Position numbers and translations under genes: made by a program | The notes under the pieces: generated by a model | What the model was told of the DNA's origin: nothing | The model's input: the letters and a program-made list of their open reading frames with translations, nothing else | The model's database searches: none | Assembly: GCA_945949045.1 (NCBI GenBank) | Contig: CAMFDG010000008.1 | Coordinates: 1-62,718 of the forward strand | Direction: 5' to 3' | From: an uncultured Lachnospiraceae bacterium | GTDB lineage: Bacteria > Bacillota > Clostridia > Lachnospirales > Lachnospiraceae | Length of the DNA stretch: 62,718 bases | Part shown: positions 3,766 through 59,528 of the stretch, piece by piece | Layout: every line of letters begins with the position of its first letter | Position numbering within the stretch: position 1 is the stretch's first letter

Positions 3766-4845
3766 TTACTCTTCTCTTTCCTCCATCGTACCAACGGCTC
3801 TTTTGATTCCTTCCGCAATATCTATTTCTGCTTTCCAGCCCAGAGCCTCAAGCCTGCTGCTGTCCAGAATCTCCGGCGTCTTTTGTGAAAAATCCAAAAC
3901 CGGTTCCTTCTCATCCCAGGCATTGGCAAATTCCAGTGAAATATTTCTCTCCGGAAATACTCTTACTGCTGTTTTGGCAAAATCACGAATGGTAATATCC
4001 GAATGCTTTGCGGCAATATTGTAAGGGGTTCCCGCCTCTCCCTGCAGCAGGATCGTCAGCAGTGCGCTGGCCGTATCCGTCACATAGCAGAAAGAACGAT
4101 AGGCCGCTCCGTTACTCTTCAGCAGAATATTCTGCCCGCGAATAATATTGGCCAGAAACTGTGCCCACACTCTGTCATCCTCCATGGTGCTGGCTCCATA
4201 GATGTAGCTTGGACGCGCCAGCTTCACCGGGACTCCATACTGCTTCACATAACAGCTGCACAGGGTCTCCATAGCCCGTTTGCCCATGGCATAACAGTTT
4301 TTATAGGCATCAATATCCAGATATCCGATATCTTCCTCATCAATATGATCCTTGCCGGAAGTAAGCTCCCCATAGATTTTCAGGCTGGAGATCATCAATA
4401 CGCCTTCGGCCTTCTCCTTTTTTGCATAGCGGAGAATATTGGATGTCCCAAGGGTATTGGCCTCCATGGTTCCCACCGGATCATTTTCAAAAAAGTACGG
4501 AGTTGCCTGACTTGCAGCGTGAATGATATAGTCCGCATGCTCCACATCCTCCATGCTGCTGCAGACATCCTTCGTAACCAGTGTCAGATCCTCCCGCTCC
4601 GCAATGCTCCCATACTTCTTCAAAGCCTTCTGGCGGTTTCGCACCAATCCAAGTACATGAATGTTAAGATTTTTTCTATCATTATTCAAAAGCAGAGCCA
4701 GTGTCAGGTAATAGGCAATAAAACCGTTCGCACCGGTAATCATGACGGTTTTCCCACGGAATTTTTCCCAGTCCACCGGTGTATCTGCAATTTTCTCTAC
4801 ATCCTGATACAAATGCTCTCCTACGCTTTCTCTGATCAGATTCAT
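3766..4845 (-). CDS. NAD-dependent epimerase/dehydratase (extended SDR)
   Basis: The 359-residue extended short-chain dehydrogenase/reductase has a Rossmann motif 'MITGANGFIAYYL' (residues 35-47), the 'HAASQATPY' segment, a catalytic Ser near 153-154 and a YxxxK pair (Tyr185, Lys189). The last Gly of the usual GxxGxxG is Ala here, as in some dehydratases. It resembles UDP-glucuronate decarboxylase or dTDP-glucose dehydratase relatives and should make a modified nucleotide sugar or CDP-linked precursor in the cytoplasm. GGGAGG lies 9 bases before the ATG. It is separated from the cytidylyltransferase gene by a large palindrome at 4885-5238. The substrate is not predictable. Confidence 0.85.
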   Translation of the reverse strand: MNLIRESVGEHLYQDVEKIADTPVDWEKFRGKTVMITGANGFIAYYLTLALLLNNDRKNLNIHVLGLVRNRQKALKKYGSIAEREDLTLVTKDVCSSMEDVEHADYIIHAASQATPYFFENDPVGTMEANTLGTSNILRYAKKEKAEGVLMISSLKIYGELTSGKDHIDEEDIGYLDIDAYKNCYAMGKRAMETLCSCYVKQYGVPVKLARPSYIYGASTMEDDRVWAQFLANIIRGQNILLKSNGAAYRSFCYVTDTASALLTILLQGEAGTPYNIAAKHSDITIRDFAKTAVRVFPERNISLEFANAWDEKEPVLDFSQKTPEILDSSRLEALGWKAEIDIAEGIKRAVGTMEEREE

Positions 4846-4884: not shown

Positions 4885-5238
4885 CGCACTGATTTACGTG
4901 CGGTTCCGTCTCCCGCAAGGGCATTCGTCTACGGCTGACACTCGATTTATTCCAAACCGTGTGCGAGTTAATGCCTCCATACACTTGTTGAACATCGGCC
5001 CATGCAAAATTTGCCTTCGGCAAATGGGCCGACGCTACATGACAGGTTTTCCATGAAAACCTGTCACATTTAAAGTGGGCACGGGAAATACACGTTCAAG
5101 CGTAGCGCGTTTGTATTTCCCGTGCCTGATAAACTCTGTGGATGGAGGCATTTACTCGCACTAGGTGCAGGAATCACGAGAGCGTCAGCCGTAGACGAAT
5201 GCCCCTACGGGAGACGGGACCGCGCGTAAATCAGTGCG
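4885..5238. repeat. Large nested palindromic element with about 100-bp arms and three internal hairpins
   Basis: The 436-bp gap between two polymer genes holds no credible gene. Its outer arms, 4885-4984 and 5138-5238, are imperfect inverted repeats; the outer part (CGCACTGATTTACG at 4885 against CGTAAATCAGTGCG at 5225) pairs almost fully, and the inner part pairs around GTATGGAGGCATTAACTCGC. The centre has three hairpins: 4995-5032 (closed by GCCCAT/ATGGGC, inner TTTGCC-TTC-GGCAAA), 5041-5065 (GACAGGTTTT/AAAACCTGTC) and 5078-5126 (GGCACGGGAAATACA/TGTATTTCCCGTGCC). No clear target-site duplication is visible. It could be a MITE-like element or a structured RNA. Its core recurs at 58952-59033. 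Confidence 0.8.
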
Positions 5239-5281
5239 AAAATTTTTTATAAGATAAGACAGCCAGAAGCAGCCCTATCCC

Positions 5282-6016
5282 TTATAAACCGTATTTTAAT
5301 ACTTCCTTTGCAAACTGCTTATAATGTTCATAATAATGTATTGCCCGAAGGGACTCCAGATCCTCCGGAGTCGTTACCTTGATATTCTCCCGGATTCCCT
5401 GGAAAATATGAATATTCTCCCCCAGTTCAATTAACAGCTCTCCGGAAGAAACCGGATCCAGATGCTTTTTCTCTGCCTCACCGTGGGCCCACATGATCTT
5501 GCGCATCGTATAGCCCTGAGGAGCCTGGGTGATAAACATCTTTTTTCTCTCATAATTCTTGCTGCAGTTTTCCCCGTCATCACTATATAATACAGAGTCA
5601 ATGCTTGGCGTTACCGGAACTGCTGTCTCATACTTTCCTGCATCCTCGATGCATGTTGTAATCAGCTGTTCGGAAAGCATCGGACGCACGCCATCACAGA
5701 TCAACACGATATCCTCCGGCTGTGCCACCTTCTGCACCTCCAGCAGACCATTGTGAATCGACTGGTATCCGCTTGCACCTCCCGGAACCGTTGCAATCAC
5801 CTTTTTGATGCCGAATTTCTCAATATCTTTATTCAATTCATCCAGCCAGTTCTCCACGCAGACCACAACGATATTGTCTACCATGGGATGATTGGAAAAA
5901 TGCTCCATTGTCCGGACAATGATCGGCTTTCCTTCAATCTCCAAAAACTGCTTCGGAATATCAAGAGACTTCATTCTCTGTCCGATTCCACCTGCAAAAA
6001 TTAATGCTGAAACCAT
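5282..6016 (-). CDS. IspD/TarI-family cytidylyltransferase
   Basis: The protein is about 244 residues and begins 'MVSALIFAGGIGQRM', the CTP-binding loop of the IspD/TarI family, followed by PKQF with its conserved Lys. Further family motifs are 'VLICDGVRPML' and 'PVTPSIDSV'. These enzymes couple CTP to a polyol phosphate (ribitol-5-phosphate in TarI, methylerythritol-4-phosphate in IspD). The surrounding glycerophosphotransferase genes favour a wall-polymer CDP-polyol over isoprenoid synthesis. The start is set at 6016 because GGAGG lies 7 bases upstream; an ATG at 6043 in the same frame has no such site. No TarJ-type reductase gene is next to it, so the substrate remains open. Confidence 0.85.
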   Translation of the reverse strand: MVSALIFAGGIGQRMKSLDIPKQFLEIEGKPIIVRTMEHFSNHPMVDNIVVVCVENWLDELNKDIEKFGIKKVIATVPGGASGYQSIHNGLLEVQKVAQPEDIVLICDGVRPMLSEQLITTCIEDAGKYETAVPVTPSIDSVLYSDDGENCSKNYERKKMFITQAPQGYTMRKIMWAHGEAEKKHLDPVSSGELLIELGENIHIFQGIRENIKVTTPEDLESLRAIHYYEHYKQFAKEVLKYGL

Positions 6017-6052
6017 TTTTCTTCCTCCATTTCTTTGAACCATTGAACCAAT

Positions 6053-58766: not shown

Positions 58767-58943
58767 ATGAATTTACCAAAAGATCCAGTCATGCTGCTCA
58801 GTGTCGTCAACACACAGCTTCGGGACAACTACCCAAGCCTTGCGGAACTGGCAGGTGCTTACATGACCACAGAGGACAGTATCAAAGAAGCACTTGCCTC
58901 TGTAGACTATCACTATGACGGGAACCTGAACCAATTCATTTAA
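58767..58943 (+). CDS. DUF4250 small protein
   Basis: The 58-residue product starts 'MNLPKDPVMLLSVVNTQLRD', which is the DUF4250 hallmark, followed by 'SLAELAGAYMTTEDSIKEAL' and a short Tyr-rich C-terminus ('DYHYDGNLNQF'). It has no Cys or membrane span. AAGGAGACC lies 8 bases before the ATG. The family is confined mostly to Clostridia and its function is unknown. It is next to another tiny gene, with a repeat element between them. Confidence 0.82.
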   Translation: MNLPKDPVMLLSVVNTQLRDNYPSLAELAGAYMTTEDSIKEALASVDYHYDGNLNQFI

Positions 58944-58951
58944 TATTCCAC

Positions 58952-59033
58952 AAATGCGGCAGGTTTTCTCAGAAAATCTGCCATACAGCGCCGGACCATT
59001 TGCCGCAGGCAAATTCCGCATGTGCCGATGCTC
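58952..59033 (+). repeat. Second copy of the palindromic element core
   Basis: The 82-nt stretch aligns without gaps to the reverse complement of 4990-5071, with 66 of 82 bases identical. It keeps the first hairpin (GGCAGGTTTTC and GAAAATCTGCC) and the TTTGCC...GGCAAA inner hairpin. One A-T pair of the first stem is replaced by G-C, a compensatory change. The outer arms of the 4885-5238 element are absent here. It ends 18 bases before the DUF6472 start codon. Confidence 0.85.
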
Positions 59034-59051
59034 CAAAAAGAAAGGAATTCT

Positions 59052-59228
59052 ATGAAAACCAGCTGTGATTTTTGTGCATACAACGAATATGACGAGGAGG
59101 ACGAGGCCTACTACTGCTCCGTCAATATGGATGAGGATGATATGGCTCGCTTTATGCAGAGCAGTTATAGGGAATGTCCCTTCTTCCGATCCGGAGATGA
59201 GTATAAGGTGGTACGTCACCAGATGTAA
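59052..59228 (+). CDS. DUF6472 small Cys-containing protein
   Basis: The 58-residue product reads 'MKTSCDFCAYNEYDEEDEAY' at its start and has Cys5, Cys8, Cys22 and a later Cys ('ECPFFRSGDEYKVV'), giving a four-Cys pattern that could bind zinc or an iron-sulfur cluster. It matches DUF6472. The ATG follows AAAGGAATTC; an upstream ATG at 59022 lacks an SD. It is encoded just after the repeat copy and just before the REP-like cluster. Function unknown. Confidence 0.82.
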   Translation: MKTSCDFCAYNEYDEEDEAYYCSVNMDEDDMARFMQSSYRECPFFRSGDEYKVVRHQM

Positions 59229-59229
59229 T

Positions 59230-59467
59230 TGGGCGGTGAGAATAAATTTTTTTCTATACGCCCACCAGAAATGGAATCTCCATGAAAATCAAGGGATATA
59301 TGGGCGGCAGAGACAAGTTATTTGCTATGCGCCCAGATTTGGAATCTATCATGTCAAAAAATGGGCGTATAGGAAATTATTAGTTCCTACCGCCCATTTT
59401 TTTCTCTCCAAATGTAATAAACCAAAATGTACGGGGCGCATACAAAATAACCATTCTGTATCGCCCA
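59230..59467. repeat. Cluster of four 35-bp REP-like palindromic repeats, two in each orientation
   Basis: Copies lie at 59230-59264, 59301-59335, 59362-59396 and 59433-59467. All are exactly 35 bp and begin with (T/G)GGGCG and end with CGCCCA, so each can fold back. The third is 28 of 35 identical to the first when reversed, and the fourth resembles the reversed second. Start spacing is 71, 61 and 71. Interval sequences share TGGAATCT and CATG motifs. The cluster fills the gap between the DUF6472 gene and putP. Confidence 0.8.
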
Positions 59468-59528
59468 GATAGCCATTCAAAAAGGAGATAACGATTCGAA
59501 AGAAGTCTGAATAGACCTAAAAAGTTAA

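Follow-up and report, generated by a model that had tools for sequence, protein, structure and literature searches.

A dispersed two-hairpin repeat of Lachnospiraceae, often located directly before Shine-Dalgarno sequences

Known short repeats and the element at 58952

REPs are short, palindromic intergenic repeats that occur in many copies, show compensatory changes, carry a GTAG-like motif by the hairpin and sometimes lie within larger palindromes (PMC3733652, PMC2817692; see also PMC3116915). In the accessible parts of these sources they are 20-40 bp long and found mainly 3′ of coding regions, their dimers join in opposite orientation (head to head or tail to tail), and RAYTs accompany the GTAG type (PMC2817692, PMC3733652). 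Firmicutes are nowhere mentioned in the accessible part of the REP account in PMC3733652. The pneumococcal BOX, RUP and SPRITE elements are described, in the accessible part of their source, as short, non-coding, folded and dispersed repeats that can be co-transcribed; BOX has a modular build, and each of the three is over-represented where genes converge, a pattern that the authors read as tolerance (PMC3049150). The MITEs Correia, Chunjie and ERIC are small, non-coding and intergenic and can occur within operons. For Correia elements a position just upstream of genes is described as predominant, and the accessible part of the source mentions promoters and inversion for them and no fixed sense orientation by a Shine-Dalgarno sequence (SD) (PMC10969869). 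A literature search, with most subscription papers outside its reach, returned no title describing the repeat reported here.

We analysed a stretch of 62,718 nucleotides (hereafter the window) from an uncultured Lachnospiraceae bacterium, whose genome (G000) is a 2.16 Mb draft that is 80% complete. An earlier note on this DNA had claimed a gapless likeness of 82 nt between two distant sites. The claim stands: positions 58952-59033 align ungapped to the reverse complement of 4990-5071 with 66/82 identical, the runner-up ungapped places in the window reach 39 (same strand) and 38 (reverse strand) identities, and the best score from 100 shuffled queries was 42. The features at the two sites are as follows.

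58767..58943, plus strand: DUF4250 gene, 58 aa (PF14056, E 4e-24)
58952..59035, plus strand: copy of the two-hairpin repeat (match to covariance model R1, 83.0 bits, E 4.8e-16; one of the 22 rows of R1)
58956..58984, plus strand: hairpin 1 of this copy (consensus structure of 22 own-genome copies mapped on the sequence; one C.A mismatch)
58987..59032, plus strand: hairpin 2 of this copy, inner stem ATTTGCC/GGCAAAT (consensus structure of 22 own-genome copies)
59041..59046, plus strand: Shine-Dalgarno-like AAAGGA of the DUF6472 gene (read from the sequence; SD score 4/6)
59052..59228, plus strand: DUF6472 gene, 58 aa (PF20076, E 5.8e-27)
4988..5071, minus strand: the window's other copy of the repeat (matches R1 with 107.6 bits, E 8.6e-22; likewise among its 22 rows)
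4885..5245, minus strand: larger nested palindrome in which this other copy lies, belonging to a different repeat family (matched elsewhere in the genome both with the core and without it; folds at -236 kcal/mol)

The first copy lies 8 nt past the DUF4250 stop and 16 nt ahead of the DUF6472 ATG, and no promoter-like or terminator-like site was found at 58952-59035. The second is in sense to its minus-strand neighbours, which code for an IspD-type protein (5282-6043) and an epimerase (3766-4845). Hairpin 1 keeps its pairing between the sites as had been claimed, with one A-T pair becoming G-C and one G-C pair becoming G-T; a T-A pair near its foot is a C.A mismatch in the 58952 copy, on which the earlier note was silent.

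Two further observations concern this neighbourhood. Just 3′ of the DUF6472 gene (59227-59477) are two overlapping inverted repeats with GGGCGG..CGCCC hairpins, and a hairpin resembling these was seen by eye in the flanks of the composite repeat described below. Moreover, in two other genomes of the genus (loci L175 and L178) the DUF4250-DUF6472 gap holds a long and different hairpin sequence, perhaps a further repeat of species-specific kind that occupies this niche.

Copies, hosts and fold of the repeat

The repeat unit is about 84 nt long and comprises two hairpins joined by ATGYAGC, with GTTC as its end. A search of the window's genome with the longer element returned 75 matching stretches, many of which are the core alone. 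R1, a covariance model built from 22 own-genome copies and giving rough E-values, yielded 77 matches in this genome at E<=1, antisense echoes of palindromes among them, and 48 at E<=1e-3, two of which are antisense echoes of listed copies. Matches to R1 occur in at least 14 of 60 genomes of the genus, at least 6 of 299 in the family sample and at least 1 of 391 in the class sample, the last being the window's genome itself. These counts are lower bounds because few candidates were scored per genome (at most 75, 15 and 11, respectively), so that diverged forms may be missed, and R1 is biased towards copies with the fold intact. Four other genomes of the genus hold at least 35, 23, 14 and 14 matches. 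Named genomes, scanned with one pattern, yielded 21 stretches (11 titled Agathobacter, 8 Lachnospiraceae and 2 Clostridiales), while phages and plasmids searched by blastn and viral contigs searched with one exact pattern held no match.

Several copies form head-to-tail tandems that repeat every 83-87 nt or so, and others are single. At one locus common to G056 and G005, whose flanks are 96-97% identical, the former has four tandem copies and the latter two, the first of each being incomplete. Within the window the sole Rfam family at the gathering threshold was tRNA, and looser scans, run on both sites and on six loci, yielded matches below gathering only. Some of these lie over the repeat or over the palindrome that hosts it (in the window GA-cis, E 0.52, and SNORA36, E 0.0045; at L016 mir-5880, E 0.005) and are taken as chance likeness to hairpins.

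The earlier note had treated the arms around the 4990-5071 site as the outer part of the element. They are indeed absent at 58952; however, they are no outer part of it and form a separate repeat family that hosts the core. Among seven aligned copies of the large palindrome (an eighth, diverged row was excluded) the core is present in three, within the loop CACTNNAGTG, and missing in four, which rules out arms and core as a single element. The 361-nt palindrome is itself repeated in the genome, its inner parts near-identical between copies and its outer arms varying in sequence with complementarity kept. A larger composite repeat, with a left part (TATCTATTCA..CCCCATGCAAAT) and a right part (AGCTTTGGGCATATATATG), also hosts the core, at six places in this genome, two of which are cut by contig ends, and at one in G056 (loci L023, 1498-1581; L022; L004, 1072-1155; L037; L040; L041; L120).

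The fold is conserved across these copies. In a MAFFT alignment of the 22 own-genome copies (A1), made independently of the model, 14 of the 29 pairs show a compensated double change. Two further alignments were fitted to R1, so their figures lean towards the model: in A2 (95 distinct rows, R1 matches that share one base with a tandem neighbour being excluded) 25 of 29 pairs are changed on both sides and 97.0% of cells pair, against a shuffled mean of 87.1% and at most 49.2% in slid controls, whilst in A3 (five other genera, 28 rows) double changes affect 22 of 29 pairs and 98.6% of cells pair, against 77.3% shuffled and at most 41.4% slid. The two-hairpin core is therefore a conserved fold without the arms, as the earlier note had proposed, and the further copies and covariation for which it had suggested looking were both found. 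Moreover, each hairpin has a conserved G.U pair at its foot (82/93 and 83/92 rows with letters in A2; 27/28 and 28/28 rows in A3), and in 91 of 97 copies folding is more stable for the sense than for the antisense strand. Together with the placement before SDs described below, these two features favour the sense strand and point to a fold that would act through it, as RNA or as single-stranded DNA.

In being palindromic, dispersed, intergenic and present in high copy number, with compensatory changes and a GTAG-like motif, and in lying sometimes within larger palindromes, the repeat is like the REP, BIME and REPIN elements of the GTAG and CGTC super-families, as far as these are described in the accessible parts of the sources. 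However, it is about 84 nt long with two different hairpins instead of 20-40 bp, and the tandems that we read are head-to-tail, in contrast to the opposite-orientation dimers of REPs. The REP tag (GTAG/GTGG or CGTC) is unpaired at one end; in the repeat, GYAG (GTAG or GCAG) lies between the hairpins and is partly paired, and CGTC follows in many copies, with CCCC or CCTC in its place in others. The repeat shares with MITEs, as described in the accessible part of PMC10969869, a small, non-coding and intergenic nature and the ability to lie in operons, but has no terminal inverted repeats, since the ends of the A1 consensus (AAATGTG and GATGTTCAA) are not inverted copies of each other.

Placement before Shine-Dalgarno sequences and empty sites

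We scored placement with a test that works without a gene caller and asks for an ATG opening an ORF of >=80 aa, with >=4/6 matches to AGGAGG, 3-45 nt away. In the genus set, in which the loci from outside the window's genome are the best-scoring ones, 58 of 90 arrays have a sense SD and ATG 10-44 nt downstream (mode 16; 30 of them at 16-18 nt), whereas in the reverse direction a single array of the 90 passes and random positions in the same loci pass in 9.4% of cases (n=3600). About a third of the arrays (32/90) fail the test. The stop of an upstream sense ORF lies nearby in 25/90 arrays, against 7.1% at random. In other genera 8 of 22 arrays pass in sense and none in reverse, with 10.0% for random positions. 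When single matches were put to a similar test, 61 of 97 passed, and in 45 of these 61 the SD starts -2 to +6 nt from the end of the element. Within the window's own genome, with the ORF cut-off set to 50 aa, 22 of 36 arrays pass in sense and 0 in reverse. Its 14 misses comprise three arrays in the large palindrome, six in the composite repeat, three that fit no class and two (L002 and L016) in which a further whole or partial copy is followed by an SD and ATG, as judged by eye.

The genes behind the copies are diverse. Twenty of the 61 downstream proteins were scanned; 18 of these have a Pfam family, and their functions form no coherent set. Genes found behind copies include those for ribosomal proteins L20 and L3, a PlsX-type protein, pyruvate kinase, Ldh, cobalamin and ATP synthase, among others. 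The earlier note had drawn attention to the tiny DUF6472 gene and had suggested a role for the fold from the likeness of two sites. Neither point is borne out as a local function: the core is a member of a dispersed repeat, and a DUF6472-specific regulator is rejected on the 30 loci read. The DUF6472 gene is present in 40 of 60 genomes of the genus, and among 30 such loci that were fetched, two of which hold only 38 nt of upstream sequence, the model finds the repeat in G000 alone.

A mobile repeat with no target preference, whose copies survive before SDs where selection finds them harmless or useful, would fit the copies that sit inside other repeats and away from SDs (9 of the 36 own-genome arrays) as well as the three that fit no class. 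However, each hairpin is near-palindromic, so antisense copies should be tolerated about equally, and reverse copies number 1 in 90. Moreover, the pneumococcal repeats that are read as tolerated are enriched between convergent genes instead, according to the accessible part of PMC3049150. We therefore consider such filtering by selection an unlikely account of the placement.

Comparison of orthologous loci shows where the repeat sits relative to the SD. At rplT it is present in two of eight genomes read (the window's genome and G037) and absent in six; five of the empty sites read ..GTT straight into AAGGAGG and the sixth, in G051, has a different short gap (G055 was located at this locus by a single flank). 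At plsX one of four genomes (G000) is filled, and G037, G005 and G010 read GATGCATAAGGAGG or one base off. The empty sites place the repeat immediately 5′ of AAGGAGG, and the two gene loci with clean junctions, rplT and plsX, show no consistent target site duplication. When the 600 nt downstream were compared among the fetched loci of G000, G056, G032, G005, G037 and other genera, which are the best-scoring ones, few gene loci were in common, namely rplT, pflA, one transporter locus and, weakly, a ptsI-like one, in addition to a composite repeat.

Presence and absence at orthologous sites, as expected of a MITE, indicate that copies come and go, although no fresh insertion was observed and absence in relatives could be due to loss. 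With its tens of dispersed copies and its empty sites, the repeat behaves like a non-autonomous mobile repeat.

The same data bear on whether the repeat is a cis-acting regulatory RNA of leaders or intercistronic regions, selected at each gene, binding a ligand or protein and controlling translation or mRNA stability, with its spread being incidental. Such an RNA would be expected to have a conserved fold with covariation, which the repeat has, and the conserved G.U pairs on the sense strand and the position before the SD speak for it, as do the orthologous copies at rplT (G000 and G037) and pflA (G037 and G056), which differ in sequence and still fold. However, no regulon is shared among the downstream genes, the repeat is absent in 46 of 60 congeners and from orthologous sites, and at rplT in G000 two pairs of hairpin 1 are broken. 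A regulatory RNA of this kind thus seems to us improbable.

Possible routes of mobility and effects on the message

Two types of transposase were considered as mobilisers. In the genus a Y1_Tnp domain was found in 3/14 carriers of the repeat compared to 17/46 non-carriers, and in neither the window's genome nor G056, which are drafts. In other genera it was found in one of five carriers, and the four without it include drafts that are 94, 98 and 100% complete. An IS110 transposase over the cut-off was found in 3/14 carriers and 19/46 non-carriers of the genus. Neither enzyme tracks the repeat, and neither is supported as its mobiliser on these drafts; both are weakened as candidates and keep some room because drafts can miss IS elements.

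These counts weigh on the idea that the repeat is a REP-type element moved by a Y1 transposase (RAYT or IS200/IS605-like), for which its hairpins, the GYAG before hairpin 2, the covariation and the intergenic dispersal could be cited. Since Y1_Tnp was missing, on drafts, in 11 of 14 carriers of the genus and in four of five carriers of other genera, we regard this origin as highly improbable. The repeat also lies mostly before SDs, and REPs are described mainly behind genes in the accessible sources.

Many genomes of the genus also have IS110 (PF01548) matches under the cut-off, located in reading frames about 1430 aa long (e.g. G000:C14:20987-21199), which are perhaps RuvC domains of Cas9. 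IS91-type ends, attC sites and retrons were considered as well; as regards IS91-type ends, GTTC is not at the two empty sites.

We think it probable that the element is a short, non-coding, non-autonomous mobile repeat of two hairpins, which would be moved in trans and would insert by preference 5′ of AAGGAGG. The enzyme responsible would probably recognise its hairpins, either in the form of single-stranded DNA or in that of a structured transcript. A gene that received a copy there would keep its SD and spacing and gain two hairpins in its leader or intercistronic RNA. These hairpins may keep upstream RNA away from the SD, or may alter the processing and stability of the downstream message, and either effect would favour the retention of copies. 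More tentatively, the repeat might be a mobile leader element that targets ribosome-binding sites and inserts directly 5′ of the SD in sense, without the Y1 and IS110 enzymes that were tested but by some other route, and would so equip genes with a portable leader of two hairpins; we put this forward as a possibility with less confidence than mobility with a preferred spot.

The repeat resembles BOX, RUP and SPRITE in having a Firmicutes host and in being short, non-coding, folded, dispersed and capable of co-transcription, whereas sense-only placement adjacent to an SD is not described for those three in the accessible part of PMC3049150. Position before genes is not new in itself, because Correia elements are also said to map there (PMC10969869, in its accessible part); the novelty of the repeat lies in how tightly it is spaced to the SD and in its fixed orientation.

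A repeat located mainly before SDs, and in one orientation, would offer a natural example of a mobile element that either selects the translation start region or is retained there. As far as the accessible sources describe them, REPs lie mostly behind genes, pneumococcal repeats between convergent genes and Correia elements before genes, and a repeat that sits in one orientation in front of the SD stands out among these. It makes testable which enzyme moves the repeat and whether housekeeping genes of gut Lachnospiraceae are expressed differently because of it.
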